Positions 30,126-59,692 of a DNA stretch of 64,000 bases are shown here, in pieces; position 1 is the first letter of the stretch; each line of letters starts with the position of its first letter. The stretch lies in NCBI GenBank assembly GCA_036172665.1, contig CM069872.1, positions 23,681,001 through 23,745,000 on the forward strand, written 5' to 3'. The position numbers were made by a program, and so were the translations under genes. The notes below the pieces were generated by a model. That model did not search any database. It was not told where the DNA came from and saw only the letters and a program-made list of their open reading frames with translations. Source of the DNA: Prosopocoilus inquinatus. Lineage: Eukaryota; Arthropoda; Insecta; Coleoptera; Lucanidae.

Positions 30126-30240
30126 ATTACGAATGGTAAAAAACTCAATGTTTCACTATCGATTGAAAGCGTCATTCCTGACGACGCTATCAATCGATAG
30201 TGAAATGTTGAGTGCTTTTCCATTTATAATTCTGTCCGTT
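30126..30240. repeat. Inverted pair of Penelope-tail-like sequences
   Basis: Two inverted copies of a segment around caatcgatagtgaaa face each other. The right copy reads cctgacgacgctatcaatcg then atagtgaaatgttgagtgc. A third copy lies at 59362-59410. The motif has CTGACGA and GAAA with a CTATC/GATAG stem and a CATTC/GAGTG outer stem, so it is hammerhead-like. Stem III is too short to be sure. Confidence 0.5.
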
Positions 30241-31735: not shown

Positions 31736-31818
31736 CTCCGTCCTCAGATAATTAAGAACTTAAATTTATTAAAGATGTAGCAATTCACAATGATTACTCA
31801 GTAGATATTGTAGAAAAT

Positions 31819-32373: not shown

Positions 32374-32485
32374 AGCGCTCACTACTGGAAGCGCACGCTT
32401 CATTGGAGCGGAACGCACTTAGTATATAAGGTAGCGATAGGTATGACACGTCACTTCTCCTGTGATTTAGTAGGATAGAAGTCGC

Positions 32486-32530
32486 AACTACTGAAGATGG
32501 CAGCATAGCTGTCGAAATACGTATTTAGTT
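32486..32530 (+). ncRNA. Hammerhead ribozyme in Penelope tail
   Basis: Stem I AACTA (32486-32490), core CTGAAGA (32491-32497), an extra T, stem II GGCAGC/GCTGTC with loop ATA and one G-U pair, core GAAA (32514-32517), stem III ATACGTAT, cleavage base T (32525), and stem I partner TAGTT (32526-32530). Compared with 608-650, both strands of stem I changed and pairing is kept. Confidence 0.72.
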
Positions 32531-33378
32531 TAAAAAAAAAAACATTGTGGTTAGGAGTCAAATTTATTGTTAGACAAGCCACAGTCTCCAATACATTAAA
32601 CACCCTTAAGTGATAATCAAATGTAAATAAATATAGAAAAATGAACCTCGTATGGTTAGTTATTTCAAAGGAATGCCAGTTACTATAAATTTTGAATAAA
32701 AAATCGAAAATTTCGTATTTTATTGCATGGTGCGTTAATTTATTGCAGTAGTGTACACAAATTTTGAATTTACCGCTCTTATAAGTGGCGGAACTAAAGT
32801 GCATTAGCGAAGGCGTTTAATTATTGTTTAAAGGATCGCCCAAATTTAAAAAACGAAACGGATTTGAAGAACTGTCGTGTTACTGGAAGAATCTAAAGGT
32901 ATGCGTGTTCGAGGAGGTGGTGAAAGAAGTAGGCAGAATTCTAAATGAGGTCCAAATAACCCTGGAAAAAGTTCTAAGTCATCAGCAACAACAAAAAGAT
33001 CCTGCCATTTAAATTGTAATGCATGTAATTTCTTTCTTAATGAGAAAATAAATAATTATCAACTGTTTGCTCGTGACTTAATCATCCTTTTCACGGAATG
33101 CTTCGGTCTTGCTTCAATTGTACTGGCAACAGTGGCAGTGGTAGTTTCACAGATTACTACAGAGATGCGAAGGCTGGCATTTCCACCATTTCTCATCCCG
33201 CCATTGTTTAAGAATTTTATTAATCCGATAGTGTGAGGTTACGACATACAGTGCACTGTTAATCAAATAATTTCACGGTATTTTCATTACTACCTTTATT
33301 CGTTGATTAAAACAGTATATTTATGAAAGGTGCATTAATGTATTAACACTCCAATACGCCACAATTTTCAATCGCTTC

Positions 33379-33510
33379 GATCGCTTTTTGACCTGACATT
33401 GCAGTAGGATAGACAAATTGAAGCGGCATTTGCTCCTAATAAGTCCCCCATGCAAGGCGGCCATGCTTGCTGTCAAAGCATAATGAAAGTTTAAAAAATT
33501 TTGTTGCAAA
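33379..33510 (-). repeat. Hammerhead retrozyme copy, part 1 (split by retrotransposon)
   Basis: This is unit sequence in reverse orientation from ctttttgacctgacattgca to aatgaaagtttaaaaaattt, where the CR1-type element begins. The unit resumes at 36988. The two parts add up to most of one 312-bp unit. Confidence 0.75.
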
Positions 33511-33852
33511 TAATAATAATAATAGACATCTTTATTTCCCAGTAAACACAAGAACATCATTTATAAATGTAATGTAATTTAAGCGGGGAAACCTAAGGGT
33601 GAGGTTCACATATGTGGTCTTCCACCCAAACCTTGAATAACAATGACAAAGCAATAAGATAAACGCCTAAGACTAAGGGCTTAAATTTAAAGATTGACAA
33701 AAAAAAAATAGAATATAAAAGAAAAAAAAAGATGCAGATAAAGATATTCTATGATCACAACGAAAAAAGAGTAAAGTTGAAGGGTAATCAGATGTAAGAA
33801 AAATACAATGAAGGAATAATATTGTGAAAGAAAAAGTGTTTTTAATGTTACA

Positions 33853-34436
33853 TTAAATTTGTGAGGAACAGCTATTATCTTGTTGCAAGGTAAATAAAAA
33901 ATCGTAGAAATTGATTCTGAAATTGGAGACGTTAAATTTTTTTAAGTGTGACGGAATATTGTTGTAAATCTGTGTAATTTGGTGCTTGAAACATCGTTCG
34001 AAAAGCGCTGTACGATGTAGAGGTGGCGTAAGTGTTCCTATATTCCGCACATTGATATTATGAATGTCTGTACGGAAGACAATTTTTCTGTACAAGTAAG
34101 ACGGTTGTTTAGACAAGATAATACTATGATAACAACAGGCTGTTTGAAGTAACCGACGATTTTTCATATTCAGCCATTTCAGGTCTATAAGCTTATGAGA
34201 TATGTGCTCGAATTTACGAATTCCAAAAATGTATCGCATGCAAGCATTTTGAACCTTTTGAATGCGATATTCAGACAAAGAATCAAGACAGCTGTTGAGT
34301 AGAGATGCACAGAAGGAGAAATGTGAAAGAACTAAGGATTCACAAAGTAAAGATTTTGTTTTAATATTAAAAATATTGCGATGAGGGTATAACTTCTTTA
34401 GAATGGAGTAAGCTACGTTTATACGTGAAGAAATAT
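33853..34436 (-). pseudogene. Retrotransposon pol C-terminal part
   Basis: The frame resumes after the hammerhead array with SSRINVAYSILKKLYPHRNI and continues through LLCESLVLSHF, MRYIFGIRK and LTPPLHRTALFERCF to a stop at 33853. This segment follows the reverse transcriptase in CR1/jockey-type elements and lines up with the corresponding end of the element at 61597-64000 (LLCNSLVLSKFNYC). It has no internal stop but is cut off from the polymerase by the array. Confidence 0.8.
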
Positions 34437-34439
34437 GAT

Positions 34440-34968
34440 GAACATATAAAATAGCGACATCTTACTATCGCTTTTTGACCTAACCTTGCAGTAGGATAGA
34501 CAAATTGAAGCGGGATTTGCTCCTAATGAGTCCCCCAAGCAAGGCGGCCATGCTTGCTGTCAAAGCATAATAAAAGATTTTAGAAAAATTTTGTGCAAAT
34601 CGTTTTTGATTGCAGTGAGAACCTCGAGCAGCCTCTGGACAGCTGTTTCAGCCCTGCTTGGGGCTTCTTCAGCAGAAACGTAGCTCGACATTCCCACTGC
34701 AGACCAAAAACGACTTGCCCAATTTATTCGCAAATGCGATGTAAGAATGATGAACATATAAAATAGCGACATCTTACTATCGCTTTTTGACCTAACATTG
34801 CAGTAGGATAGACAAATTGAAGCGGGATTTGCTCCTAATGAGTCCCCCATGCAAGGCGGCCATGCTTGCTGTCAAAGCATAATGAAAGATTTTAGAAAAA
34901 TTTTGTGCAAATGGTTTTTGATTGCAATGAGAACCTAAAAAAACGATTTGCACAAAATTTTTCTAAAA
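34440..34968 (-). mobile_element. Hammerhead retrozyme array inside the CR1-type element
   Basis: The insertion begins gaacatataaaatagcg, one base different from the shared family end, and holds about 1.5 units. The period is 312 bp (the aacatataaaatagc landmark at 34441 and 34753). It ends with an inverted piece, gatttgcacaaaatttttct. It separates LILDNNERF from SSRINVAY in the retrotransposon protein. The target duplication cannot be fixed because the retroelement and the unit share aatgaaagattt at the junction. Confidence 0.8.
34631..34679 (-). ncRNA. Type I hammerhead ribozyme in 312-bp unit
   Basis: On the minus strand: GTTTCTG, CTGAAGA, AGCCC-CAAGCA-GGGCT, GAAA, C-AGCT-G, T, cleavage base C, CAGAGGC. 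The core is complete. Stem I has seven pairs, two of them G-U. Confidence 0.83.
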
Positions 34969-36126
34969 TCTTTCATTATTGTCAAGTATTAGACCAAGAT
35001 TTTTAGCACTAGTTACTAGGGGTATGTCACAGCCATTTAAGGAAAATTTAACTTTAGTCAGCAAATCTGAGCATAGTTTATCAGAACCAAAAATTAAGGC
35101 GCGAGATTTACTAGGATTAACTGTTAATGAGTGGGCTTCAGAAAATTTGGCGATTCGAAGCAAATCGTCGTTAATGAGCGAAATAGCTGTATCTGCAACA
35201 TGTGCTTTAAATTTATAATTTAACTGGCTATCGTCAGCATACATGTGCAAAGTGCAATGCATTACGGCATCATTGAATTTACTGGTGTATATTAAAAACA
35301 GTAAGGGCCCGAGAACAGAACCCTGAGATACTCCGGAAGTTAGAGGTAACGGATTGGATATGACGTCATTGAGTTTGACGCTTTGCGTCCGAGTAAATAA
35401 GTAACTTTTTAATAAATTATTAGCATCCAGACTAAAACCAATGTTATCAAGTATCGCAAAAAGGACCTCATGGTTCATAGTATCGAACGCCTTACTATAA
35501 TCCAACAATACCAGGGCACCGAGATAACCAGCATCTAAAGCGCACAAGATATCATCAACAATAATGATAAGAGATGTGGTGCAACTATAGCCCTTCCTAA
35601 ATCCCGACTGTGAAGCCGGTAATATTTGAAGTGAAGTTACATATTCATAAATTTGCTAATGCATAACTTTTTCCAGGACTTTCGAGAGCACAGGTAAAAT
35701 ACTAATTGGTCTGAGGTCTTTAAGAGAGTTCGGTAGTTTGACTTTGGGGATGGGGATAACATGCGCATGACGCCATACCTCGGGAAACACATTGTCAGTC
35801 AGGCAGCAATTAATTATATGAGTTATGTGAGGAAGTATGGTAGGACAACACAACTTAATCATATCAGCACTGATATTATCAGATCCCACAGATTTAGTAT
35901 TTAAGTGAATAAGTATGTTGCCGATAGTGGTTAAGTCAACGGCAGTAAAATTGAAGTTAGAAGAATTGGTTGGAGATTTATTGTTATTATTGTAAAATGA
36001 AATAATATCTTTATTAGCATTTATATGGTTAGGTATGGAATTGATAAAGAAATTGTTGATTTCGTTAACATCAACAAATTTAGAAGGAAGAGATTTTTTT
36101 TTCGAAGTTAAATTCATTACTTTCAA
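34969..36126 (-). pseudogene. CR1/jockey-type reverse transcriptase
   Basis: The domain shows LRPISILPVLSKVLEKVM, SGFRKGYSC, LLDYSKAFDTMNH, GVSQGSVLGPLLFLIY and the catalytic YADDSQ, in the order of the family. One in-frame stop (about 35653, after KVMH) breaks it. A frameshift near 36130-36210 separates it from the endonuclease. The 3' end is cut by the hammerhead array. The enzyme copies its RNA at a nicked target; this copy is inactive. Confidence 0.85.
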
Positions 36127-36206
36127 TTTGCTCCATAAACTCTGATTGCTTAGATACTCAAAGTACGCTTTTTTCTCGAACTTAATTGTAAGGTTAGTTG
36201 GGTTCT

Positions 36207-36987
36207 TTAAAGATTTGTAACAGTTAAATGAGGAAGCAGACCAGTTTGTCTGTATTTATATTTAGCTTTATCACGAAGAGACATTAAAAATTTTAAGTTA
36301 TCAGTTAACCAACCTGCAGGCCTCTTGCTGACTTTAAAAGTTTTTACTGGAGCATGAGTATCGAAAAATTGCAGAATACATTCGTTAAGGTATAAGATTT
36401 TTTCGTTAGTATTAGGAATGGAGTATATGTTGTTCCAGGGCAAGTTAGTGAGGTCTAGATTAAAATTATTTAAGTCAAAGAGTTTATAATTTCTAGATGT
36501 CTTGAATACTGGAGTTACCTCTGGTTTTGTAAAATTCAGAGTACACTCGATTAAGTCGTGATCGGAAAGATCACAATCAACTACCGCTGAGTTTAGTACT
36601 CTGGAATCATCGGAAACAATAATTACGTCTAATAAACATCTGGTTGATTCTGTAATTCTAGTGGGCTCATTAATACTTTGTGAAAGGTTTAAAGATTTAA
36701 GCATGGAATCAAGGTATTCTGTAACAGTACTGTCATAATTGAGCAAGTTAATGTTCAGATCGCCAAGTAACACAATATTGTCAGAATATGCACTATTAGT
36801 TAAAAGTGTATTTTCCAATTCATCAATAAAAACCTTATAATTTTCATTGGGTGGTCTGTAAGCAACACCAACAATTAGTGAACCATGCAATAGATTTATA
36901 GAAATCCACAACTGTTCAATGCTATTATTACATAGAACAGATGAAAAATGCAAAGAGTTGCGAATATATAAACCAACACCACCTCCA
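36207..36987 (-). pseudogene. CR1/jockey-type AP endonuclease domain
   Basis: The endonuclease/exonuclease/phosphatase domain begins mid-domain at RGGGVGLYIRNSL. It continues with VGVAYRPPNENY, the LLGDLNINLL motif, INEPTRIT and CDLSDHDLIECTL, where D-L-N and S-D-H are catalytic signatures. The N-terminal third is missing because the element is 5'-truncated at the hammerhead copy. It ends with a frameshift near 36207. Confidence 0.83.
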
Positions 36988-37130
36988 CGAAATCGTTTTT
37001 GATTGCAGTGAAAACCTCGAGCAGCCTCTGTACAGCTGTTTCAGTCTTATTTGGGTTTTTTTCAGCAGAGACGTAACTCGAAATTTTCACTGCAACAAAA
37101 TTTCGAATAAATTGGTCAAGTCGTTTTTGG
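36988..37130 (-). repeat. Hammerhead retrozyme copy, part 2, with mutated core
   Basis: This is the continuation of the unit split by the retrotransposon. The ribozyme region is at 37023-37072 on the minus strand. Stem I GTCTCTG/CAGAGGC is intact, but the core reads CTGAAAA, so the essential G8 is A, and stem II is degraded (ACCC/GACT). This copy should be inactive. Confidence 0.75.
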
Positions 37131-39163: not shown

Positions 39164-39314
39164 TTTATTGTATTTGTAAACATCAAAACCACCAAAACCA
39201 GTGCTGCCAATCGCATTAAGTCTGGAATCCCGCAATTCTAATGAAAATTAAATTAATTAAATACCGGGTGTCCGGTAATTGTTCCCAATCTTCTTTTTAA
39301 ACATCGACCCCTTA

Positions 39315-39442
39315 GGCCCAGTTTTACAAATGCGGTTCAACTTTGAACCGAGGCTTAAACCCTTAGCAACAATTGTTGAAATAATCGTTGCTAAGGGTTT
39401 AAGCCTCGGTTCAAAGTTAAACCGCATTTGTAAAACTGGACC
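39315..39442. repeat. PIF/Harbinger-like MITE, copy 2
   Basis: A 128-bp almost perfect palindrome from ggcccagttttacaaatgcg to its complement. The arms around acccttagcaac/gttgctaagggt match with very few differences. It is flanked by tta on both sides (39312-39314 and 39443-39445). Less diverged than copy 1 at 13349-13476. Confidence 0.8.
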
Positions 39443-39982
39443 TTACAAGGAAATAAAAATTTTCATCGAGCCTCTTTCGAATTTAATTAATATTTCTAAA
39501 ACAGTAGGTGCAGATCTACTAATAATGTTAAATTTAAATTTTGTTAGGTTTTGACAATTTGTTATTTATTTATTTTGATTTGATTTTTTTTTATTATAAA
39601 CCGATCTCTCGCCGATTCTCTTATTTTTATATTTGAATTATCACTTTTATTCTCTTTTTGTCCAAACTTTCGTCAGTGTTCTCGATTCGATTCATTTAGT
39701 TTAACAGAATTTTTATTTTAGTCTTATTTTCATCAACGATCGTCTTTTGTTTTGGAATTCGTGTTATTTTTGAAATTCATTTGACTTATTTTAATGTTTT
39801 AACTACCAGTTTATTATCTTTTTTTGCTTTCTGTTTTGTTTGATTTGTAATAATCCAGATTCTTAGGATATTTTATTAAGTTAGAATTCGTATCATGACT
39901 CGTGAAGAATACAAAACACATGCAGCGTTCTGCAACGAAAACGTTCGTCAAGCTTGCGATGTATGATAACGAATGAACTATA

Positions 39983-40927: not shown

Positions 40928-42104
40928 GTACAGGTTGGCCCAACGATGCGCAATTCTTCTGTGAGGCTTATGGGAAAAAAATTAGGAAAAAAATCTATAA
41001 AGAATTTTATACTAGACAATACGCGGCATATTGTAAAATTATTTTGAACTATACAGAGTGATCAGAAAATTGGTGGTTCGTGGAAACTTATTTTTTTTTA
41101 ATGGTACACCCTGTATATTTCTAGATATTTGGATGCGCCACAGTAAGCTGATTACAGCAGTACAAAGATATATTGATTTTATTGAATAACTTTCATAAAA
41201 TATTTTTTTTTCTTGAAGAATTTTGCAAAAATTCAGTACGTTTGAATTTGAATTTCTGATTAATGAGGTAACACAGACGAACGAAAATCTAACACGATAT
41301 TTTTAGGACTTTGGCCTTTATGAAAATGTGAACAAAATTAAGATATCATTTTGCAATATACTGAACGATCGATACTTACGAAACATTCGGTATCTCATTT
41401 TTTTTTAATGGAATGGTCTACTTTTTATTTCAGAAATGGATAGCACTTAAATGCAGCTTTCTGCTGATATCAGGTTATATACCTTTATTTTTAATAATTT
41501 CGTCACTAGAAATTTTCTTTTTATAAGTATTTCAATGGTCGGCGTCTTAAACTATACACCCAGTATTCCTACTTTCCTACCTAAATTCATTCATTCGAAG
41601 TCATTTTTCGATCATTTGATTCTACTTTCAAAGATTTCTAATTGAATACCTCCGCGATAGGATTTATTTTACCAAAAATAAATTAAAACCGACCATTGAA
41701 ATACTTGTAAAAAGAAAATTTTTAGTGACGGAATTATTAAAAATAAAGATATATAACCTTATATCGGCAGAAAGCTACATTTAAGTGCTATCTATTTCTG
41801 AAATAAAAAGTAGGCCGTTCTATTAAAAAAAATAAGATACCAAATGTTTCATCAGTATCGATCGCTCGGTGTAATGCAAAAAGGTATCTTAATTTTGTTC
41901 ACATTTTCATAAAGGCCAAAGTCCCAAAAATATCGTGTCAGATTTTCGTTCGTCTGTGTTATCTCATTAATCAGAAATTCAAATTCAAACTTACTGAATT
42001 TTTGCAAAATTCTTCAAGAAAAAAAAATTATTTTATGAAACACGAATAAATTAAATAAAACACTATTTTAGTATATATCACTATATTTAACACAAGAATT
42101 GTGA

Positions 42105-42140
42105 CTGCAGTTTCGGCATACAATGCCATTATCAAACTAA
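42105..42140 (-). ncRNA. Degenerate hammerhead-like motif in inverted leader
   Basis: Reverse complement of the motif at 48697-48732: TTGATAA in place of CTGANGA, stem II GGCAT/ATGCC, GAAAC, TGCA, GTC. Two core changes (C3 to U and G8 to A) make cleavage unlikely. Confidence 0.5.
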
Positions 42141-42230
42141 AATATTTTAACAAAACTTCAACTTAAAACTAGCGCTAAAACGATAGAGGTGTAGTACTGA
42201 GAATTCTAATTTAATTTAAATTTATTAAAT

Positions 42231-43782
42231 AAAGGCCCTAAATATTCACCAAACATAAACAATAAAAAACACAAGGAAGTTCTTGCTATCGAGTCTGAAA
42301 TAGCAAAAAATTACAATAACCTACCTAGACTTAAAATCTATGACGCCCTGAAAAACTACAAACCACAAATAATCAATCATTCTTCAGATGTGAAAGTCAT
42401 AAAAAGTTTAAAACAGAAAATTAACGAAAATGATTTAGTAATCACCAAGGCCGACAAAGGCAACACTGTTGTAGTATTATCAAGAAGAGATTACGACCAC
42501 AAAATACAAGAGTTCATTAATAAAGAAAAAATAATTGAAACGAAGACAGATCCCACGAACAAATTTCAAAATCAGATAAAAGAAGCCATCAAATCTAGTA
42601 ATGCCCTACTCACTAATGCCGAAAAATATAAACTAGTACAAATGAACACTACAGCACATAGACTATATGGATTATTAAAAATCCACAAAAACGAAGCCCC
42701 CATTAGACCGGTAGTCTCTTACATTGGTTGCCCGACAGCCCTATTAGCCACAAAACTTAATAATATCATAAAAACTCACACACAATTCCGAGATATCCAC
42801 GCAATAAAAAATACTATTGAATTAACAAAACAACTGAACCAAGAAACAATCCCCAGCAACTTAAAATTAGTCTCCTTCGACGTTTCAAATATGTTTTCTA
42901 ATATCCCACCCGACGAATGTATCCACTTAATAACAACCATGTTAGAGAGAAAAAAAGTTAACCCCATAATTACCAAAGAAATTCTAGATCTTACACAACT
43001 CGTTACTAAGCAAAACTATTTCACCTACGACAAAAAATTTTACAAACAGACTGAAGGTTTAGCTATGGGATCGCCCCTCAGCCCCTTACTTGCAGAAATA
43101 TTTATGGAATCTATTACTATACAAATCCTAACATCTGATTTAGCCAAAAAACACATACAATTTTGGTACCGATACGTCGACGATATTGTAGCTGGCTTCA
43201 TAGGTACAAATCGAAACTTACAATTATTTCTCTCCCACATAAATTCAATCCATCCCAAAATCAATTTCACACTTGAAACTGAACAAGAACACCAAATTAA
43301 TTTCCTTGACCTAACAATTACCCGAGAAATAAATTCCCTAAATTTCAAAATTTATAGAAAACCCACATATAGACTGCACTATTCCTATGGACTCCCTACA
43401 TCCACATCAGCACAAAATGGCAGCTTTCAATTCAATGATTCACCGAGCTATTAATTTACCTCTATCAGAAACCGAACTCAAAAATGAAATCGATATCATC
43501 ACACAAATAGCTCACAACAATGGATACAACAAAAAAACAATAGATAATATACTGAAGAACAAACAAACAAAACATAACCTCAGTCAAATTTACCCTCACG
43601 TTCATGACAATAAACAAACAAACCAATATACAACCTCAACATACAGCGGAAAAATCAGTGAAAAGATTGGAAAAATTCTTAATAAAAACAACAAAAATAT
43701 TATTCTCAGTTTTAAACCACAAACAAAATTATCTCACATCATTTTTAATGCAAAAGAGAAACTAGATCCGTTATGTACCTAA
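42231..43782 (+). pseudogene. Penelope-like reverse transcriptase, frameshifted
   Basis: Reading starts without ATG at NKGPKYSPN just after the inverted leader, so the N-terminus is truncated. It continues through DLVITKADKGNTVVVLSR, RLYGLLKIHK, APIRPVVSYIGCP, LVSFDVSNMFSNIPPDE, TEGLAMGSPLSPLLAEIFM and the catalytic YVDDIVAG. The frame ends at 43454. Homologous text continues in another frame from 43387 (HQHKMAAFNSMIHRA) to 43782, so there is one frameshift near 43375. A second one-base shift precedes the endonuclease at about 43780. The reverse transcriptase copies the element RNA at the nick; this copy is broken. Confidence 0.87.
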
Positions 43783-43790
43783 ATCAGGAG

Positions 43791-43992
43791 TGTAATAGAG
43801 TTGGCAACATTGTTAATATAGAGATATACACGTAGAAGAATGGCGTCGATGGCGTCCTAATTGATGTCTGTATCAAATTGTTATACTTACCTCCTAATAC
43901 CTACCTGTGTAATCATTTAGTGTTGTTACGGTGTTATTGACATTATAATAAACTATTCTAAAGACACATGTTATATCATTCACACGTTTACA
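43791..43992 (+). repeat. 5' LTR of gypsy element
   Basis: Begins TGTAATAGAGTTGG and ends CACACGTTTACA, with TG...CA ends. An AATAAA-like ataataaac lies at about 43949. Identical to the 3' LTR over 202 bp. Confidence 0.93.
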
Positions 43993-44002
43993 TGGCGCAG
44001 TC
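43993..44002 (+). promoter_or_regulatory. Primer binding site, tRNA-Ser type
   Basis: tggcgcagtc abuts the LTR. It equals the complement of the 3' end of insect tRNA-Ser (…GACTGCG plus CCA) over ten bases, the site used by several Drosophila gypsy-type elements. The match ends after ten bases. Confidence 0.75.
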
Positions 44003-44055
44003 ATAAAAATAAATAAGGTTAAAATAACGTGTGCAACAAGTGTTAAAAAAAAAAA

Positions 44056-45582
44056 ATGGAATTTCTAAAACAACCCAAGCCAATGGTGATGGAAGGAGAC
44101 CTAGCTTTGAATTGGAAGAAGTTTAAACAGAATTTTGAACTGTACTTGATGGGAACGGGAGGCAGCACAAAATCGCAGGAGGTACAAGCAGCGGTGCTAC
44201 TACATTGTGTGGGACAAGAGGTAGTAGATATTTTTAATACTCTTGATATGACAGCAGAGCAGAGTACGAACAAAAATAGTATACTAGAAAAGTTAGAAGC
44301 CCATTTCATACCTAAAACTAACGTTAGTGTTGAGAGGCATAAATTTAATATGCGTTCACAGGCACCAAATGAATCATTTGATACTTTCCTGACGGATTTA
44401 AGAAACGTGGCAGCTTCTTGCAATTTTGGAGACATGAGGGACAGTCTCATCAAAGACAGATTGGTATGTGGTATCGGTGACTCCAAGATAAAGGACCGGC
44501 TACTAAGGGAGGACAATCTAACACTGGATAAGGCAATCACAATATGTAAAGCAGCTGAACAAACAGAAGCACACCTCAAGAAGCTTTGGGATCAAAATAC
44601 AGTAGATATGCATGAAATAAAATCATCGGCTACAAGAAACAACACAGAGGAGTCGAGATATGGAGCAGGATGTGGACGAAGGCAGCAGAGATTTTTGAAT
44701 CACAAGCAAGAGACAAGAAATTATAAGACACCAGGGGGAACAAGGGCGAACCAAGAAGGCAATGGAGCGAATAGGCAAATAGGCACAAACTTACGAGGAC
44801 AACATCAGTCTCAACAGGGTAGACAACAGAAAAACATGCCAAGACAAACCAATTGTTACAGGTGCGGGTATGAAAAACATTCTTTGAATTTATGTCCAGC
44901 TAGGGATAAAATATGTAAGATTTGTAAAAAACAAGGACATTTTGCAAAAGTCTGTAAAACTAAATCGCTAAATGAAGTCAAAATGGCTTGCATGAATGAT
45001 AATATTAATACACATCAAGAAAATTTTGAGTCACAAACTTATGTTCTGGACAGTATACAAAGTGATAAAAATGAAGACTCTTGGATGATGAATATAAAAT
45101 TTCTGGATTCTAATAAAATGATTAATTTCAAATTAGATACAGGTGCGCAAATAAATGCAATACCAGAGCAGATTTATGCAAAGTTGAATGTGGTAAATGA
45201 TCTTAAACCTTGTAATTTTAAAGTTACTAATTATTCAGGAGATTTAATTAAAATATTGGGTTCATGTAAATTGAAAATCGAAGCTAAAAATGAGATTTAT
45301 AATGTAGAATTTGTAGTTGTACGCACAAAAACATTAAGTACACCGGTACTGGGTTTAAAAACGATACAAGAGTTAGACTTGTTGAAAAGGGTTTTAATGA
45401 TAGAGGACAAAAATCAGAAAGATATAATTACAAAAAATAATCAATTATTTCAAGGTATAGGAAAAATTAAAGCAAAACCATGTGAAATTAAACTCAAAGA
45501 AAATTATCAGCCAGTTGTTGTTCCCAGTAGAAGGGTTCCATTTCAGTTAGTAAACAAGTTAAAGGAGGAACTAGATAATTAA
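44056..45582 (+). CDS. gag: Gypsy gag-protease
   Basis: A 508-codon frame starting MEFLKQPKPMVMEGDLALNW. Residues 1-200 form a gag capsid-like region (FEQNFELYLM-type start, RHKFNMRSQAPNESFDTFL). Near residues 275-310 are two zinc knuckles: CYRCGYEKHSLNLC and CKICKKQGHFAKVC. Near residue 360 is the aspartic protease active site, FKLDTGAQINAIP. The end enters the N-terminal edge of the reverse transcriptase (VVVPSRRVPFQLVNKL) and stops in a taataataa run. Gag packages the RNA and the protease matures the polyprotein. In related elements gag and pol are usually one frame or joined by frameshift; here the stop goes with a local deletion. Confidence 0.9.
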   Translation: MEFLKQPKPMVMEGDLALNWKKFKQNFELYLMGTGGSTKSQEVQAAVLLHCVGQEVVDIFNTLDMTAEQSTNKNSILEKLEAHFIPKTNVSVERHKFNMRSQAPNESFDTFLTDLRNVAASCNFGDMRDSLIKDRLVCGIGDSKIKDRLLREDNLTLDKAITICKAAEQTEAHLKKLWDQNTVDMHEIKSSATRNNTEESRYGAGCGRRQQRFLNHKQETRNYKTPGGTRANQEGNGANRQIGTNLRGQHQSQQGRQQKNMPRQTNCYRCGYEKHSLNLCPARDKICKICKKQGHFAKVCKTKSLNEVKMACMNDNINTHQENFESQTYVLDSIQSDKNEDSWMMNIKFLDSNKMINFKLDTGAQINAIPEQIYAKLNVVNDLKPCNFKVTNYSGDLIKILGSCKLKIEAKNEIYNVEFVVVRTKTLSTPVLGLKTIQELDLLKRVLMIEDKNQKDIITKNNQLFQGIGKIKAKPCEIKLKENYQPVVVPSRRVPFQLVNKLKEELDN

Positions 45583-45651
45583 TAATAATTAAATAAATCA
45601 ATTATTCGCGAAAGACAGGAATTACCAACTTTTGAGGAAATAACAAAAGAT

Positions 45652-48105
45652 ATGAAAAAATCATCAATCTTTTCAGTTCTTGATGCTAATAAGGGTTTTT
45701 GGCAGATAGTTTTAAGCGATACATCAGCAGATTTGACTACGTTTTCTATTCCTTTTGGATTGTTTAAATTCTTAAGATTACCTTTTGGCCTAACGTCGGC
45801 ACCTGAAATATATCACAGAACTTTTTCAGAAATTTTTGAAAATATTCCAAACGTTAAAATATACATCGATGATTTGATAATTCATACTGAGACTAAAAAG
45901 GAACATGATAAAATTATACAGCTAGTTTTAAAGAGAGCATATGAAAAAGGCGTGCGTTTTAACCCAGAAAAATGTAAATTCTATCAAACAGAGGTGAAAT
46001 ATGTGGGACATGTAATCTCTAAAAGTGGTATCAAAATTGATAAGGACAAGGTTGAAGCAATTAAACAAATTCCAGAGCCCAAAAACACAAAAGAACTTGG
46101 TAGATTTTTAGGAATGTTAACCTATGTGGGAAAATTTTTACCAAATTTAGCAGCATTAACTTCAAATCTTAGGCAATTAATGAAGAAAAATGTAATCTGG
46201 GTGTGGTCACAAATTCATGAGGACGAGTTCAATAATGTAAAAACAGTATTAACTAAAAGCCCAATATTAGGATTTTACGATGAAAAGAAACCAATAGTTT
46301 TGTCAGTAGATAGCTCGAAAGTAGGGTTGGGAGCTGTGATTTTGCAAGATAACAGACCCATGGCTTATGCATCAAAATCGCTAACAGATGCACAACAAAA
46401 ATATGCCCAAATAGAGAAAGAAATGCTAGCGATAACTTTTGGCTGTCAAAGATTTAGGCAATATTTATACGGAAAAGAATTTACGGTAGAAACAGACCAT
46501 AAGCCACTGGTCTCTATTCTGCAAAAACCACTGGATAAATGCCCATTAAGACTTCAAAGGTTAAGAATAATTTTGCAAGGGTACACATTTAAAATAATAT
46601 ATAAGCCAGGAAAACAATTATACTTGGCAGATGCTCTGTCTAGGGCAAGCTATGACGATAAAAACTTTGAATTATCAGAAAGAGAGTTACAGGCTCATAT
46701 AGATTTGGTCAATTTATCAGACAATGTAAGTAAATCAAGACTAGAGAAAATCAAAGTAGAAACCAAAGCAGATAAGGAACTGCAAATACTTATTCAAACA
46801 ATTCAGGAGGGTTGGCCAAATGAAAGAAGAAAAGTAAATGATCAAGTCAAATCATATTGGAAGATCAGGGATGAGTTAGTAGAGCATGAGGGCATAGTTT
46901 ACAAAGGTTCTCAGATTATCATTCCTAGAAACATGAGAAGGGAAATTTTAGACAAGTTACACATGACACATCTGGGAATTGAAAAGACTAGTTGGAAAGC
47001 AAAAGACATAGTATATTGGTCCTACATGTATAAAGAAATTAAAGACAAAATAGAGAATTGCCCAGCATGTCTCACCTACTCAAGAAAAAATCAAAAAGAA
47101 ACATTATTATGTCGCGAAATTCCGTCTAGACCATGGCAAATTGTAGCCACGGATCTTTTTTACTTTAGTGGTGAAACATATTTACTAATTGTAGATGTAT
47201 ATTCGAAATATCCCGAGGTTCGAAAATTATGTAAAGATTCGACTTGTAATGCGGTAATTAATGAAATGAAAGAATGTTTTTCACGGTTTGGGATTCCTGA
47301 AATCCTATATTCAGATAATGGTCCACAATTTACAGGGTGGCAATTTGTCGATTTTTTAAGTAACTGGGACGTTGTTCAAAAAACTTCGAGTCCAACATAC
47401 TCTCAGTCCAATGGCTTTATTGAACGTCAAGTTCAAATCATGAAAAATTTATTAAAGAAAGCTAAATTTGACAACAAGGAATTTAATATGGTTTTACTTG
47501 AATACAGAAATACACCGTTAGATAAAAACATTCCTTCACCAGCATTTTTATTGCAAGGGAGAAGACTTAGAGGACATTTGCCAGTTGCAGATAAATTATT
47601 ACAAACGAACTACGCTAAACAATATCAAAAGTTACAAAAAGAAAAGCAGAATAAGCAAAAATATTATTATAATCTACATGCAAAAAATTTGACTAAGTTG
47701 AGAAAGGGAGAAGAAGTAATGACAATGAATCAAAAAGGTATTTGGATTCCAAGCAAGATTATAAGAGCTGATACCAGTAGACCTAGATCATATTTGGTGA
47801 AACCAAACAATAGTAATATAACGTTAAGTCGAAATAGAAAGTTTCTTAAACCTATACCTAAAAGTACATTTCAGGATACTACGAACATATTCAACGAAAT
47901 GCTAGAGCAGCAAATTGAACTGCAATCCAAAATTAGTAACAAATCTAATCCTGTATTAAATAATGAAAATAGAGCAAATGTTAACAGTGACAGGCAGATC
48001 TCCTCCAACAGTCAATTAGAATGTAATAGTAGAGTAGGAAATCCAGTAGTTACCCGAGTGGGTAGAACCATTCGAAAACCAGCCTACCTTCAAGATTATC
48101 TGTAA
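45652..48105 (+). CDS. pol: Gypsy pol: reverse transcriptase, RNase H, integrase
   Basis: An 817-codon frame, also open for about 15 codons upstream of the first ATG. It begins in the middle of the reverse transcriptase: FSVLDANKGFWQI, LPFGLTSAPEIY and the catalytic YIDDLIIH. Then RNase H (LSVDSSKVGLGAVIL, ETDHKPLV), the integrase H2C2 zinc finger (HMTHLGIEK...CPACLTY) and the DDE core (VATDLFYFSG, YSDNGPQFTG, SNGFIERQVQ). Compared with the family, roughly 40 codons between the end of the gag frame and this frame are missing, including the conserved first reverse transcriptase motifs. The polymerase should be inactive, while integrase looks intact. Confidence 0.92.
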   Translation: MKKSSIFSVLDANKGFWQIVLSDTSADLTTFSIPFGLFKFLRLPFGLTSAPEIYHRTFSEIFENIPNVKIYIDDLIIHTETKKEHDKIIQLVLKRAYEKGVRFNPEKCKFYQTEVKYVGHVISKSGIKIDKDKVEAIKQIPEPKNTKELGRFLGMLTYVGKFLPNLAALTSNLRQLMKKNVIWVWSQIHEDEFNNVKTVLTKSPILGFYDEKKPIVLSVDSSKVGLGAVILQDNRPMAYASKSLTDAQQKYAQIEKEMLAITFGCQRFRQYLYGKEFTVETDHKPLVSILQKPLDKCPLRLQRLRIILQGYTFKIIYKPGKQLYLADALSRASYDDKNFELSERELQAHIDLVNLSDNVSKSRLEKIKVETKADKELQILIQTIQEGWPNERRKVNDQVKSYWKIRDELVEHEGIVYKGSQIIIPRNMRREILDKLHMTHLGIEKTSWKAKDIVYWSYMYKEIKDKIENCPACLTYSRKNQKETLLCREIPSRPWQIVATDLFYFSGETYLLIVDVYSKYPEVRKLCKDSTCNAVINEMKECFSRFGIPEILYSDNGPQFTGWQFVDFLSNWDVVQKTSSPTYSQSNGFIERQVQIMKNLLKKAKFDNKEFNMVLLEYRNTPLDKNIPSPAFLLQGRRLRGHLPVADKLLQTNYAKQYQKLQKEKQNKQKYYYNLHAKNLTKLRKGEEVMTMNQKGIWIPSKIIRADTSRPRSYLVKPNNSNITLSRNRKFLKPIPKSTFQDTTNIFNEMLEQQIELQSKISNKSNPVLNNENRANVNSDRQISSNSQLECNSRVGNPVVTRVGRTIRKPAYLQDYL

Positions 48106-48126
48106 TAAAAAAAAAAAAAGGGGAGA
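48106..48126 (+). promoter_or_regulatory. Polypurine tract
   Basis: An A-run followed by ggggaga lies directly before the 3' LTR. This is where plus-strand DNA synthesis is primed in LTR elements. Confidence 0.8.
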
Positions 48127-48328
48127 TGTAATAGAGTTGGCAACATTGTTAATATAGAGATATACACGTAGAAGAATGGCGTCGATGGCGTCCTAATTGA
48201 TGTCTGTATCAAATTGTTATACTTACCTCCTAATACCTACCTGTGTAATCATTTAGTGTTGTTACGGTGTTATTGACATTATAATAAACTATTCTAAAGA
48301 CACATGTTATATCATTCACACGTTTACA
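48127..48328 (+). repeat. 3' LTR of gypsy element
   Basis: Identical to the 5' LTR. Followed by the target duplication aggag and then by the interrupted Penelope GIY-YIG codons. Confidence 0.93.
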
Positions 48329-48621
48329 AGGAGTGTACCAATTAACATGTAATGATTGTAAAAGCGTGTACATCGGCCAAACTGGTAGGGCGTTTCATAC
48401 CCGCATAAAAGAACATTGCAGATCATTTAATCTAAAGAAGACAGACTTTCCTCAATAACAATATTAAAATACGTCATTTCGAAAACAAAGGTAGTAAATT
48501 GAACCTCCTGGAATCACTTGAAATCCATAAAGCAAAAAGAAACCCGAACGTGATTCTGCTTAACGACCAAACCGACCTGATGTACACGCCCCTCTTTGAA
48601 CCCTGTTTAAATTTAAATTAA
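48329..48621 (+). pseudogene. Penelope-like GIY-YIG endonuclease, C-terminal part
   Basis: Directly after the gypsy target duplication the frame reads VYQLTCNDCKSVYIGQTGRA then FHTRIKEHCRSF, the GIY-YIG motif with its arginine and E-H. After about codon 35 a stop and frameshift (near 48455) break it. The remainder reads toward LFEPCLNLN and a stop at 48621. The glycine-isoleucine start of the motif lies on the other side of the gypsy insertion. In intact elements this domain makes the target nick. Confidence 0.85.
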
Positions 48622-48696
48622 ATTATAATTCTCAGTACTACACCTCTATCGTTTTAGCGCTAGTTTTAAGTTGAAGTTTTGTTAAAATATTTTAGT

Positions 48697-48732
48697 TTGA
48701 TAATGGCATTGTATGCCGAAACTGCAGTCACA
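48697..48732 (+). ncRNA. Degenerate hammerhead-like motif in Penelope tail
   Basis: Around gtttgataatggcattgtat then gccgaaactgcagtc: stem II GGCAT/ATGCC, GAAAC with TGCA loop and a GTC cleavage triplet. The first core reads TTGATAA, so C3 and G8 are changed. The position matches the hammerheads in other Penelope tails. Confidence 0.5.
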
Positions 48733-49094
48733 ATTCTTGTGTTAAATATAGTGATATATACTAAAATAGTGTTTTATTTAATTTATTCGTGTAAAATGGA
48801 ATATCACAAAATAACAGCTAACAGTATCAATTATTTTATGAAAGTTATTCAATAAAATCAATATATCTTTACACCGCTGTAATCTGTTCATTGCGGCGGA
48901 TCCAAATATCTAAAAATATACAGGGTATTCCATTTAAAAAAATAGTTTCCACGAACCACGATTTCTTTCCTAATTTCTTTCCTATAGGCCTCACAGAAGA
49001 AATACGCATCGTTGGGCCACCTTGTACAAGCTGACTACAAGAAAGAAAGTCAGGCAGATCATAATTATCATGGAAACGTATCTTCAAGTAATCT

Positions 49095-51133: not shown

Positions 51134-51467
51134 TCCTTGTGAAAAAAAAACATGTATCTGTACCGGGTGTTTTATTTAAAGTGTGCCAAACGGAAACAGC
51201 TAATACAGAAAATGATTTTAAACACAGAAGTTCATATAAACGTATGTCCAAGAAATAAAAGATTATCAGAAATTTTTCACAATTTTTTAGATTAAATTCT
51301 GCAGGGCATTTCATTAAAAAATATGATTCACGCTACATTTTCTTGTCAAATGATCTCTATTTGTTCCGCAATATTTTTCTAAAAACTTTCTGTGTTGTTA
51401 ATGAGTTATGGAAGAATGAGCGCTTGTTAACTCATGCAACACTATAAATAATTTTTAAAACACTTAC

Positions 51468-53235
51468 CTTTACTTTGTATGTCTTTTCAATTGCGATTGC
51501 GTGTAGTTCTTCAACTAGACTTCTATTGTAAGAGAAGACTAATGTAGGTAACATGTTCTTGTATTGCATAACATCCAATAAATGTCGCATGCTTTCAAAT
51601 TTTCTTCTGGGATTATCTTTATGAAGTTGTTGTAAAATCGACCTGGTTATTGTTTTTTGTTTTTGATAAAGGTCATAAAAGACACGTCCTAATTCCTTTT
51701 CATAATTTCGAACCACTTCGCGTTTTATAAATCCAGAAGGGCAATGGTTCTTGAAGTACACTTCCACGTGAAGATCGGAAGGTATAAACATTCCCGCATT
51801 TGTACCGGAATACATTGCATCAAATAACTGCAGAGTTTCATGCGGACTGAGCGTTACAGTTGGAGGTACACCTTCATGCATGTCAAGAGCATAATCATCT
51901 AAGGCGCAAAAAGGATGAAAATGTACTAGGCCGTTTCTTCCGAATGTATATTTTATTAAATCCGAGTGTCTTTCAGAAAGCTCAACGAGTTCCACATGAT
52001 ATGAGCTGTTTTCACGCACAATTTTATTATCGGCATCTTGTTGCCTTTTAAAATTTTCGACGTCTTGTAGCCAATTATGAAAATGTTTAGGCTCATTGAT
52101 TGTTGCAGAGAGTGCTAAAAAGGGACAACGTATCATAAGCAAACAACGTTCCCATACAGAACCCTCGATGCCCGACAAATTATGCACTTCATCAAATATG
52201 ACGTATTTTATACTTTTTACCCAGGAGTATCTGCGTGGCGACAGCAACAAAATATCAAGGCATTGCGGCACAGTAACCAAAATACGTGAATTCAATCCGT
52301 TCGTTTTGAAGTCCCTTGTAAAAACGCCTACGACAGAAATACCATTCCGAAGTTTCACTTTAGAAAATCGATTGTATACCGTAGCGGCCACTTGGTTAAC
52401 CAGAGCTTTAGTTGGTGAAACGTACACTACAATTCCTGTGCTTGATTGTTGCAACACACGCTTCATGCAGTAATAAGAAGCGAACGTTTTTCCACTTGAA
52501 GTTGGAGCAACGACCAAAGCAGATTCATTCTTACGAATTGCGTTTATAAATTTCGTTTGCCACAGGTCAGGAGTAAAACCTATGTCCGGGTCGTAAACTT
52601 CTGAAACATCTTTTTCCAAATGTGGCCCCATGTGCTCCAATTGATATCGAATCCAATCTAAGTTTAGTAACTTATCGCATTCGACAACCGGAAGATTATT
52701 TCTCTGAGCAATTTCATCAAAACCAAACTTGTATAAGAGACTTGAAATAATTTGTTTTTCTTTATCTGTTAGTTGATAATACAGTTGAAGAATTTCACGT
52801 ATCGCCAAAAATATTTGTTTGACGTAATCTAAGGAAATGTTCTCTCCATGAAGCTGACATATGTACATCAAGATTCGCAATTCTATGACACGTGCTTTCA
52901 ACAAAACGCTTCCGTCAGTGAATTTAGTCGAAAGCTTCTGTATCTGCTCCAGATTGATTTTTTGATTAGCAAGATTGTCACCCTTCTTTACTGTTAAATT
53001 AAATTCATTTAGCAGTCGTATTTCCTTATCATACAATTTTTTCTTTGCTTCTTTTTGCAATTTATTTTTCAAATCTTTCACTTTACAGCTCTCTTTTTTC
53101 TTTTTTGCATCCTTTTTCGAAGTGGACGGTTCATTTTCTCTGCAAATTATTGTTTCAGGGACAATGTCTTTACTTTCTAAATTTCTACCATAAATATTCA
53201 TGTAACGCGAATATTTAGCAGCATTTCTCAAATAT
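51468..53235 (-). CDS. DDX60: DDX60-like helicase, exon A (motifs I-IV)
   Basis: A 1768-nt exon with one base finishing a split codon, then 589 codons from YLRNAAKYSRYMN to the donor AAG|GTAAGTG. Residues 40-75 are lysine-rich. From about 220 the SF2 helicase core begins: FTPDLWQTKFINAI, Walker A VAPTSSGKT (about 243-250), motif Ia SPTKALVNQ, motif Ib VTVPQCLDIL, motif II DEVH (348-351), motif III SAT (376-378), and motif IV PTLVFSYNR near 565. The acceptor is tttctttttcag at 53236. The upstream exon was not found to the right. The DEVH box and overall text are those of DDX60 rather than SKI2 or Brr2. Every catalytic residue checked is present. Confidence 0.92.
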
Positions 53236-53556
53236 CTGAAAAAGAAATTACAAGAGATTAAAATAAATGAATAAACCACGTTAACAAGCAACACGCCAAC
53301 GTGCAGTTATAGTTTATTATACATATGTGTATTCAACCACATTTTGGTAATTTTTTAGTTTTCGTATATTTACTAAACGCCTGTGGTCAAAGTATATGTT
53401 TTAAATAAAAAGTTTTTTTTTTAATCTTAAACCGGACAGAATTGTGATTATAATACACAAAACATTTCGCTACAGATTTGTAGAACAACTTCATGTATAT
53501 GTTTTAAGTCGTATAATATACGTATAAGGTGTATCACTTTGGTACAGAGTGACAAT

Positions 53557-56946: not shown

Positions 56947-57233
56947 GTGACAATGAGTGCAAAATTATTACTTCCCATGTACTTTTACCGGATTAATGTT
57001 TATTTGTACTGTATTACATCGGTCAGTTACAAAATGTTACTAATTATAGTCTTTCGCCATAGCTAGAGGACCTGGAGGTTGGTCGCTTACTTAAACTAAT
57101 CAGCACAATAGCGTCCTATGTGTATGAAACTAATTTCAACAACTATTTCACGGACATTTTATCCTTTATTTTATGTTATATTTATAAAAAAAATTTGTTG
57201 CAAATCGTTTTTGATTGCAGTGAAAACCTCGAG

Positions 57234-57284
57234 CAACCTCTGTACAGCTGTTTCACCCCTGCTTGGGGCTTCATCAGCAGAGAC
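57234..57284 (-). ncRNA. Type I hammerhead ribozyme, inverted copy
   Basis: On the minus strand: stem I GTCTCTG, core CTGATGA (complement at 57271-57277), stem II AGCCC/GGGGT with one mismatch, GAAA, two-pair stem III, cleavage triplet GTA and a CAGAGGT partner strand. Confidence 0.75.
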
Positions 57285-57560
57285 GTAGCTCGATATTCCC
57301 ACTGCATATCAAAAACGACTTGTCCAATTTATTCGCAAATGCGATGTAAGAGTAATGAACAGATAAAACAGCGACATCTTACGATCGCTTTTTGACCATA
57401 CAGTAGGATAGACAAATTGAAGCGGATTTGCTCCTACCGCAATGTATGGCCAAAAAGCGATTGTAAGATGTCGCTGTTTTATCTGTTCATCACTATTACA
57501 TCGCATTTGCGAATAAATTGGACAAGTCGTTTTTGGTGTGTAGTGGGAATGTCGAGTTAC

Positions 57561-57609
57561 GTCTCTGCTGATGAAGCCCCAAGCAGAGCTGAAACAGCTG
57601 TACAGAGAC
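57561..57609 (+). ncRNA. Type I hammerhead ribozyme, best stem I
   Basis: Stem I GTCTCTG (57561-57567) pairs perfectly with CAGAGAC (57603-57609). Core CTGATGA at 57568-57574. Stem II AGCCC/GAGCT has one mismatch. GAAA at 57591-57594. Stem III is C-AGCT-G plus the A-T pair. Cleavage is expected after A at 57602. Confidence 0.85.
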
Positions 57610-57872
57610 TTCTCGAGGTTTTCACTGCAATCAAAAACGATTTGCAACATTTTTTTTAAAAAAACTTTCATTATGCTTTGACAGCAAGGCATGGCCGCCT
57701 TGCATGGGGGACTTATTAGGAGCAAATCCGCTTTAATTTGTCTATCCTACTGCAATGTATGGCCAAAAAGCGATTGTAAGATGTCGCTGTTTTATCTGTT
57801 CATCACTATTACATCGCATTTGCGAATAAATTGGACAAGTCGTTTTTGTTTGCAGTGGGAATGTCGAGCTAC

Positions 57873-57921
57873 GTCTCTGCTGATGAAGCCCCAAGCAGGG
57901 CTGAAACAGCTGTACATAGGC
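57873..57921 (+). ncRNA. Type I hammerhead ribozyme, second direct copy
   Basis: Stem I GTCTCTG/CATAGGC (one mismatch), core CTGATGA (57880-57886), perfect stem II AGCCC/GGGCT, GAAA (57903-57906), cleavage expected after 57914. Cleavage here and at the previous copy would release a 312-nt RNA. Confidence 0.83.
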
Positions 57922-58122
57922 TTCTCGAGGTTTTCACTGCAATCAAAAACGATTTGCAACATTTTTTTTTAAAGCTTTCATTATGCTTTGACAGGAAGCA
58001 TGGCCGCCTTGCATGGGGGACTTATTAGGAGCAAATCCGCTTCAATTTGTCTTTCCTACTGCAATGTATGGCCAAAAAGCGATCGTAAGATGTCGCTGTT
58101 TTATCTGTTCGTTATATTTATA

Positions 58123-59361
58123 GATTTATTCAACTATTGCGTGTTGCTTGGGACATTAGGTTGCTCTGAAAACCCTAACGTTTTTGATTCATTGTTCTAG
58201 AACACTCTGACAGTATCTAAGAGCCCCTCACCACAATAATTCGTCCTAATGCAAATTTTATGTTAAACTTTAAATAATTTAACCGGCGTTAATCGCTAGG
58301 TTGAATGTGATGCCATTGGTCGTGCGTGAGATTTTTCTCCCACACATGAAATTTACCTTTTTATTCCTTATACGTATTTTTTACATGTGAACTTACAAGG
58401 TGAAGATCATTACAATATTTATTACTTTAGTTATTTTTTGTTATAAAAGTAACGTAAAATAAACAGTTAATCAGCTACTTTATTTATTTTAAAAACATAA
58501 GTCCAAATGCATTGTGACAAAATGACTAAAGGTTCGCATCTAGAATATTTACATATAAGGTGGTATGGTAAGTAATAAAACATATTAAATAACTTCTAAG
58601 TAACTAAAATAAATTAATGCGCTGTGCTACAAGGAAGTTATTATTGATATTCTAATAATAAATACTTGAAAGATGCTAAATGCAAACCTATAATTGAAGA
58701 CCAAACTTCAAAAGGGTCTAAGTGCCAAAAACATGTTTAGAAGTTATAAAAAAAACTGATTTACTAAATCTTAAGCGCACATACAAATATCGCCAACTAT
58801 GATTCATTTATTACACTTTTTATTTAACCACAGGTACATAGACCATTTTGCATCACAATGGGCTTTGCACATAGACCCATTTGCTGTGAAAATATAGTTT
58901 TTTTTTTTTAATTTTTTGGCACTTAGACCCTTTTGAATTATGGTCTTCAATTATTGTTAATTACATTGTATATAGTTGTAATTTTTTCTTCTTGCAGTGG
59001 AAGGGCTATTTTCTAAAATAAATATGTGTGTGTTCAATAAATAGTACAGTTATAGTTTTTATACTTTTTGGAATAAGAAGCGTAATATCTCAAAATCTTA
59101 ACTCTCATCGACCGACACAATATAAATCAAAAAGATGTATTAAAAAAAGTAATTAAAGAATTTGATTGGGACGCAGATTATAAAATATAAGAAGGTTGAA
59201 AAAATGATTAGATGAAATCTCAGGCTTGACATATAACTGGAAAACCGAAACAATTAAAAAAAATAAATTTTGTGAGACGAACTCTCACATAGCGACCAAT
59301 GTCGGGTTAAAAAATGAGTAATTGGTTTTTAAACTCTAACCGGACGGAATTATAATTGGAA
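58123..59361. other. AT-rich sequence, nothing assigned
   Basis: I found no gene, no long inverted repeat and no recognisable element on either strand. Confidence 0.4.
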
Positions 59362-59410
59362 AAGCACTCAACATTTCACTATGGATTGATAGCTTCGTCA
59401 GGAGTGAAAA
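59362..59410 (-). repeat. Penelope-tail-like, hammerhead-like motif
   Basis: The minus strand reads CACTC, CTGACGA, a CTAT/ATAG stem, GAAA, TGTT, GAGTG. The outer stem CACTC/GAGTG is perfect. The inverted pair at 30126-30240 belongs to the same family. Stem III is almost absent, so activity is doubtful. Confidence 0.45.
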
Positions 59411-59544
59411 AAGTAAATAAACAAGTTGTCAAGAGAAACAAGTAGTCAAGTCGTCAAGAGAAACAAAAAGGTAACATGAAATTAAGGTGCGAGTTGTCCA
59501 GAGAGACAGAGAGAAAGGTAACGAGAACATTTGTCAATCTTTAT

Positions 59545-59692
59545 GCAGTCTTAGGTCAAAAAGCGATCGTAGGGTGTCGCTGTTTTATCTATTCATCACT
59601 ATTACATCGCAATTGCGAATAAATCGGCAAAGTCGTTTTTGGTTTTGCAGCTGAAGAAGCCCCAAATAGGGCTGAAACAGCTGTACAGAGGC
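59545..59692 (+). repeat. Truncated hammerhead retrozyme unit
   Basis: Unit sequence from cttaggtcaaaaagcgatcg to the stem I partner strand CAGAGGC. The core CTGAAGA (59651-59657), stem II and GAAA are intact. About 25 bases just before the core are deleted, removing the 5' strand of stem I, so the ribozyme is broken. Confidence 0.75.

Follow-up and report, generated by a model that had tools for sequence, protein, structure and literature searches.

The array and its surroundings

The window, i.e. the whole 64-kb stretch of Prosopocoilus inquinatus DNA analysed here, contains several copies of a hammerhead-bearing repeat family with a 312-bp unit (hereafter the retrozyme), together with LINE ORFs, Penelope-like elements and an LTR retrotransposon. 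The copy of main interest lies at 57187–58110. Its parts, with unit positions counted on the reference unit (57799–58110), are as follows:

57175–57186: target site duplication, left copy, GTTATATTTATA
57187–57436, minus strand: inverted arm, from a putative cDNA start at about unit 172 (the '175' end class) downward past 1 and 312 to an inner end at unit 228
57236–57284, minus strand: hammerhead motif within the inverted arm
57432–58110, plus strand: direct arm, from unit 256 upward through two laps to unit 312 (the '312' end)
57561–57609, plus strand: type I hammerhead motif with a 7-bp stem I and a mismatched stem II, predicted cleavage after 57602
57799–58110, plus strand: one 312-bp unit (reference unit), GC 42%
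57873–57921, plus strand: type I hammerhead motif with 5/5 pairs in stem II and 6/7 in stem I, predicted cleavage after 57914
58111–58122: target site duplication, right copy

A first-pass annotation had described this region as a tandem 312-bp hammerhead array inserted as a unit with a 12-bp target duplication. The duplication stands as claimed; both copies are perfect and are the sole two plus-strand occurrences of this sequence in the 64 kb. The 312-bp period (2.2 copies over 57432–58110) and the presence of hammerhead-like motifs were also borne out, but the simple tandem description was not, since 57187–57436 is inverted and aligns with the direct units at 89–93% identity (self-alignment of the region). 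A plain tandem array is thus rejected. The motif at 57561–57609, which had been called a complete hammerhead, does have the 7-bp stem I, but has a mismatch in stem II. The insertion as a whole is oriented head-to-head, the inverted arm being followed by the 2.2 direct units, and the inner joint at 57432–57436 is common to both arms (5-bp microhomology). This inversion, missed in the first pass, is the most informative feature of the array because it implies two separate cDNA starts.

Further copies and pieces of the family in the window are:

3994–4252, minus strand: second copy, two-armed (element 4005–4241), with the 11-bp duplication TTAGTAAATAT on both sides
25615–26232, plus strand: third copy, with one 175 and one 312 end, duplication not found
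33378–33511, minus strand: piece of an apparently older copy, split from 36990–37129 by a LINE whose 3' end is (ATT)n
34435–34979, minus strand: fourth copy, located between two LINE ORFs, with a 175 end and a 312 end, duplication not found
36990–37129, minus strand: other piece of the apparently older copy, whose partner seems to be 33378–33511
59529–59692, plus strand: degenerate family fragment

The LINE at 33512–36989 apparently lies inside the older copy and is itself host to the copy at 34435–34979, a nest that would give the order of events. Elsewhere in the window, two palindromic, MITE-like repeats (13353–13477 and 39314–39443) are 90% alike and showed no similarity to the retrozyme in the self-alignment. 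A second short repeat (30125–30231 and 59341–59407) carries a hammerhead-like core (CTGACGA...GAAA) and is possibly another ribozyme-bearing family; its copy at 30125–30231 is built head-to-head (palindromic). A DDX60-like helicase ORF (51435–53306, minus strand) is 46% identical (over 93%) to a partial helicase of Oryctes borbonicus, and its next-nearest named relatives are from stick insects.

Ends, duplications and empty sites across the genome

A genome similarity search with the array gave 6478 first-look candidates, of which 40 were scored, and an exact 22-base pattern of the 312 end occurs 7247 + 7239 times (14,486), against 0 for the reversed control pattern. Two samples of copies were compared. 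The first comprises 39 loci around the best matches plus the window; filtering by size and position left 49 elements, or 47 once duplicate loci are removed. Filtered out were the clusters lying at the edge of a locus (L020, L028, L038 3266–3689 and L046) and those below 120 bp (including L025 3196–3236 and L036 1038–1081), while the duplicate loci L030 and L033 were left out of the end and duplication counts but kept in the comparisons of arm identity and lap homogeneity. The near-identical loci L029/L030 and L032/L033 (contigs C15 and C6) perhaps represent uncollapsed haplotypes or an assembly duplication; L028 and L046 are copies that form long arrays. Because the first sample was chosen by likeness to the window array, a second, less biased sample was taken, consisting of the 20 loci that contain the first 29 of 100 listed pattern sites in chromosome order, none skipped. 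It is conditioned on the exact 312-end motif and not on the 175 end, an inversion or a duplication; the size filter was lower (60 bp), nothing was dropped, and 22 elements were obtained. Outward-reading ends at unit 155–192 were classed as '175' (most at 168–175, ...GATTTGCACAAAATTTTT) and those at 296–312 or 1–14 as '312' (most at 306–312, ...GTCGCTATTTTATMTGTTC).

Most sampled insertions are head-to-head pairs of copies of the 312-nt unit that start at about 312 and about 175, and their arms can run for more than one lap. In the first sample, 25 of the 47 elements have one end of each class, and 22 of these 25 have a target duplication. The remaining 22 elements (three 175/175, two 312/312, 14 with one odd end and three with two odd ends) have none at the scoring cut. 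The second sample contains 16 one-of-each elements among its 22, 14 of them with a duplication, and the rest are 312 plus odd (three, one with a duplication, i.e. L078), 175 plus odd (two) and 175/175 (one). Duplication-bearing copies therefore have one end of each class in 22/22 and 14/15 cases, the single-armed copy L078 being the sole exception. When both samples are pooled (69 elements), 47 have two recognized outward ends (41 mixed and six 175/175 or 312/312), and a duplication is found in 36 of the 41 one-of-each elements and in one of the other 28. It is lacking in three of the 25 and two of the 16 copies with both end classes.

Cross-paired flanks served as controls, and they reach the cut in only 4/600 pairings for the 25 first-sample elements and 9/462 for the second sample; chance duplication is rejected on these figures. 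The 12-bp match at the window array is likewise beyond chance, because 22 of the 25 both-end copies pass a single scoring cut that only 4/600 cross-paired flanks reach. The first-pass annotation had named a lack of duplications at other copies as evidence against its reading; when tabulated, duplications of 11–18 bp are present in 37 of the 69 elements. Neighbour pairs at most 800 bp apart, of which there are 26 among the 100 listed of the 14,486 pattern sites, are oriented −+ (20), ++ (three), −− (three) and +− (none). No constant tail repeat follows the 312 end in the sampled copies, and one copy (L015) continues into AAT repeats. With 924 bp, the window copy is long, as the median of the 16 one-of-each elements in the second sample is only 344.5 bp.

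Paralogous empty sites were found for at least two insertions (L013 and L031), with the target present once in each. The joined flanks of L013 give an unbroken match to L032 (and its duplicate L033) that contains the 12-bp target once, and those of L031 match L050 and L012 without interruption, again with a single target. This indicates that the repeats at L013 and L031 are duplicated targets. The earlier proposal that a whole retrozyme array was inserted at once, duplicating its target, thus gains from the duplications of other copies and from these two empty sites; its plain tandem has to be given up.

Hammerhead motif, fold and arm relationships

We then considered the ribozyme. Over 130–137 laps of the first sample, 11 of the 13 core positions are 95–100% conserved, and only N7 (A77 T30 C20 G4) and H17 (C82 A50 G4 T1) vary freely. 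These are the two permissive places of the hammerhead, where N7 can be any base and H17 any base but G. Intact motifs make up 104 of the 119 that were found by a regular expression which itself demands a near-core. Stems I and II are paired in 97.4% of cells, against 20–57% in slid controls, and double changes in these stems are limited to one cell, which is not above the slid controls (1–6). The stem pattern is therefore one of kept pairing rather than covariation, because two-sided changes are no commoner than in the slid versions; the extended stem I has 21 cells with a change on both sides, a figure without a slid control. Position 10.1–11.1 is A-U in 117/119 motifs, and this pair is usually G-C in hammerheads. 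The hammerhead core is thus under constraint in the copies examined, and its conservation makes it appear that cleavage matters to the element.

Rfam alone would miss this ribozyme because scores are poor both in the whole-window scan, which gave no hammerhead at E ≤ 1 (14 matches, to miRNA families only and all below gathering), and in a narrow scan, which gave a weak in-register Hammerhead_HH9 match (16.1 bits, gathering 52, E 0.41). The exact hammerhead pattern had 0 matches in viral contigs and 0 in genome contigs, sets that perhaps do not include the source genome. With cleavage predicted after unit 116, both insertion ends lie away from the cleavage site. The circular fold of the unit has a predicted energy of −104 kcal/mol (z about −5.7 versus 60 shuffles), with 300–312 and 1–15 predicted to be unpaired, and the longest ATG reading frame in the tripled 312-bp unit is 94 aa.

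Opposite arms of the same insertion have a median identity of 97.4% (129 comparisons), whereas the median between elements is 92.2%. In 48 of 132 cases (expectation 1.66), no lap other than those of the same arm is closer than the opposite arm, and in the other 84 a lap of another insertion is closer. For 41 of the 42 elements, laps are on average more alike within the insertion than between insertions. The eight most homogeneous insertions have laps that are 97.7–100% identical, although single laps of other insertions are equally close, and some laps from different insertions are identical. The likeness within insertions would fit a single monomer that was read repeatedly around.

Copies differ in their total length and inner junction, and the junctions show microhomology in the samples examined. 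Among the 41 one-of-each elements, at least two bases are shared at 51% of junctions (17% in the null) and at least four at 24% (2.2% in the null), where the null consists of random unit positions and the observed overlaps were obtained by BLAST extension. The hairpin at unit 203–271, a window set post hoc, takes ten of the 41 junctions, against a permuted mean of 1.9 and with 0/5000 permutations reaching 10. Four of the hairpin junctions are at the same 228/256 pair and have four different duplications. Hairpin stems suit such junctions because they provide inverted repeats, without which two antisense cDNAs could not anneal.

Mode of insertion and known systems

The window also contains Penelope-like elements, with which the retrozyme can be compared:

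31756–32530, plus strand: Penelope-like fragment with a GIY-YIG ORF (31756–32370) and a minimal hammerhead-like motif (about 32480–32530)
42026–48843, plus strand: Penelope-like element with the 15-bp duplication AATTATTTTATGAAA (42026–42040 and 48829–48843)
42041–42224: inverted arm of this element, without the tail
42210–43451: RT fragment of this element
43787–48331: LTR element that interrupts it
48793–48828: 36-nt tail at its direct 3' end

At its left end, the element at 42026–48843 repeats its own 3' end in inverted orientation, minus the last 36 nt. Named relatives of its RT include those from beetles, a moth, a psyllid and a damselfly, and the top named one is a bacterial MAG, perhaps a contamination. 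The interrupting LTR retrotransposon has LTRs that are 99% identical and long gag/pol frames, and is probably recent. A minimal hammerhead-like motif common to 610–648 and 32489–32527 (90%) looks Penelope-type, the latter copy being located 3' of the GIY-YIG ORF.

A survey of 25 genomic stretches plus the window gave 13 rows with both arms of the Penelope-like element, from 11 distinct places (repeat rows L050 and L054 and single-arm stretches were left out of the count). At the same cut, 8/11 places have a duplication (12–15 bp), and all eight combine one tailed end (497) with one tail-less end (458–467). When duplicate rows are included, 9/13 reach the cut against 3/156 controls, and 13/13 against 11/156 at a looser cut of 8. 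L060 (497/457) has a 12-bp duplication with one mismatch, and L063 (497/435) and L065 (454/457) depart from the rule. First-look candidates number 164 for this family's end, against >14,000 retrozyme ends.

The retrozyme thus appears to carry the same insertion signature as the Penelope-like element of its own genome: (i) head-to-head arms, as when two strands are extended (47/69 elements are two-ended); and (ii) two internal starts in the same pattern (175/312 versus 497/458–467). When compared with the 3' ends of both Penelope-like copies in the window, the retrozyme has no convincing similarity (the best match, at E 0.12, is an A/T run), so the mobilizing helper may be another family. According to PMC11167929, both target strands are cut and extended by a purified Penelope protein of the anole, which starts at two positions inside the RNA, one at either limit of the genomic 'tail', and in vitro the hammerhead is dispensable for insertion and unprocessed RNA serves as template. 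The start site does not differ between strands in vitro in that account, which therefore leaves the one-of-each rule unexplained. A rotifer Penelope copy has an inverted pLTR that is 37 bp shorter, a 9-bp TSD and an optional 31-bp tail (PMC3846280).

The array is probably one insertion of a metazoan non-LTR retrozyme mobilized by Penelope-type machinery, as its arms, ends and duplication suggest. Retrozyme transcripts would be cleaved by their hammerhead after unit 116 and circularized, and a Penelope-type RT with a GIY-YIG endonuclease would cut AT-rich DNA with a stagger. Reverse transcription would then be primed by the 3' end of each target strand, starting at a different one of the two fixed sites on the same RNA, and the RT would travel a variable distance around the circle. 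The two antisense cDNA ends may anneal through short inverted repeats, often those of the 203–271 hairpin, and fill-in would leave the target duplication. We lean slightly towards a stronger form of this mechanism, in which animal retrozymes can only be inserted from two sides: one RNA circle made by the ribozyme would be bound at two fixed sites by a Penelope-type protein (perhaps dimeric), and the two cut target strands would be extended around that circle, each from its own site. A single event would then account for the number of tandem units, the inversion and the duplication, and animal retrozymes would be parasites of Penelope elements.

Several other origins were weighed. Inversions at the 5' end of L1 arise by twin priming in a minority of insertions, with a variable outer end and a poly(A) tail. 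Like the array, they place an inverted part beside a direct part between target duplications. A LINE could have moved the retrozyme in this ordinary way; LINE ORFs are present in the window, twin priming likewise yields a duplication and an inverted part, and LINEs are listed among the candidates in PMC7229834 and PMC11722881. This origin is nevertheless unlikely, since here both outer ends fall into two narrow classes, two-ended copies are the rule (16/22 in the less biased sample) and the Penelope element found alongside shows this architecture too. The single end with a constant LINE tail that marks LINE-mobilized (SINE-like) copies was not found in a comparison with the window's one LINE, whose (ATT)n 3' end has no counterpart at the 312 end. 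A closer relative of our preferred reading, with which its odds overlap, is a Penelope-type insertion from an uncleaved linear multimer of a genomic array rather than from a circle. We regard this as possible but doubtful. Arms of several laps need just a multimer, and the dispensability of the hammerhead in vitro (PMC11167929) speaks for it, whereas the conserved ribozyme core speaks against it. So does the 97.7–100% identity across laps and arms of the most homogeneous insertions, given that elements differ by 6–8% on average, although a very homogeneous array would mimic this.

An origin as a foldback or MITE-type DNA transposon, which the inverted structure and the target duplication might recall, is very improbable: the array ends are not convincing inverted repeats (11/30 ungapped matches; 71/1000 shuffles reach the aligned score), the duplication varies in length between 11 and 18 bp, and total length and inner junction are not constant either. 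With neither terminal inverted repeats nor a constant duplication length, it was rejected. We give equally little credence to a satellite array that was rearranged after insertion by inversion or unequal exchange and flanked by a repeat by chance. Some copies are indeed long arrays (L028 and L046), and such rearrangement may explain copies whose two ends are alike and that lack a duplication; however, chance duplications are rare in both control sets, the two empty sites are at exact breakpoints and the ends recur.

Insertion by Penelope-type machinery bears on a question of some standing. The mobilizer of animal hammerhead repeats was open in 2020, when Penelope was named a strong candidate (PMC7229834), and a 2024 review still gives LINE or Penelope (PMC11722881). 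The recurrent starts, head-to-head arms and duplications that the retrozyme has in common with a Penelope element of the same genome turn this suspicion into a testable claim. They also provide exact start sites for in vitro checks and >14,000 natural ends for the study of RT entry into a small RNA circle.

In comparison with known systems, the retrozyme resembles the metazoan non-LTR retrozymes of PMC7229834 in its type I hammerhead, which has an intact catalytic core at motif level, in its ∼300-bp repeats (here a 312-bp unit, within 150–450 bp), low GC content (42%) and low-copy tandems, and in sharing its genome with Penelope-like elements that carry minimal hammerheads. Its duplications exceed 4 bp, as is already in print for animal retrozymes that have them. 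It differs from them in that nearly every duplication-bearing copy examined is head-to-head with two recurrent ends, while the word 'inverted' is absent from that paper, and no report of a two-armed build for retrozymes was found in the open-licence literature searched. Plant LTR retrozymes are also hammerhead-bearing, non-autonomous and thought to use circular RNA, but have a type III hammerhead, LTRs, 4-bp duplications and Gypsy-type machinery (per PMC7229834). Penelope-like elements share with the retrozyme the head-to-head arms, one end with and the other without an extra 3' stretch, AT-rich targets, a type I hammerhead and two internal RNA starts on both target strands (PMC3846280 and PMC11167929). 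Their target duplications are 8–10 bp long in rotifers (PMC3846280) and 12–15 bp in this genome. Unlike them, the retrozyme seems to encode no protein and its arms can lap the unit, and its start sites are 137/175 nt apart on the 312-nt circle, against ∼30–40 nt in Penelope. The retrozyme may therefore work like a Penelope element but is not one, as its 94-aa frame is too short for RT and GIY-YIG domains.
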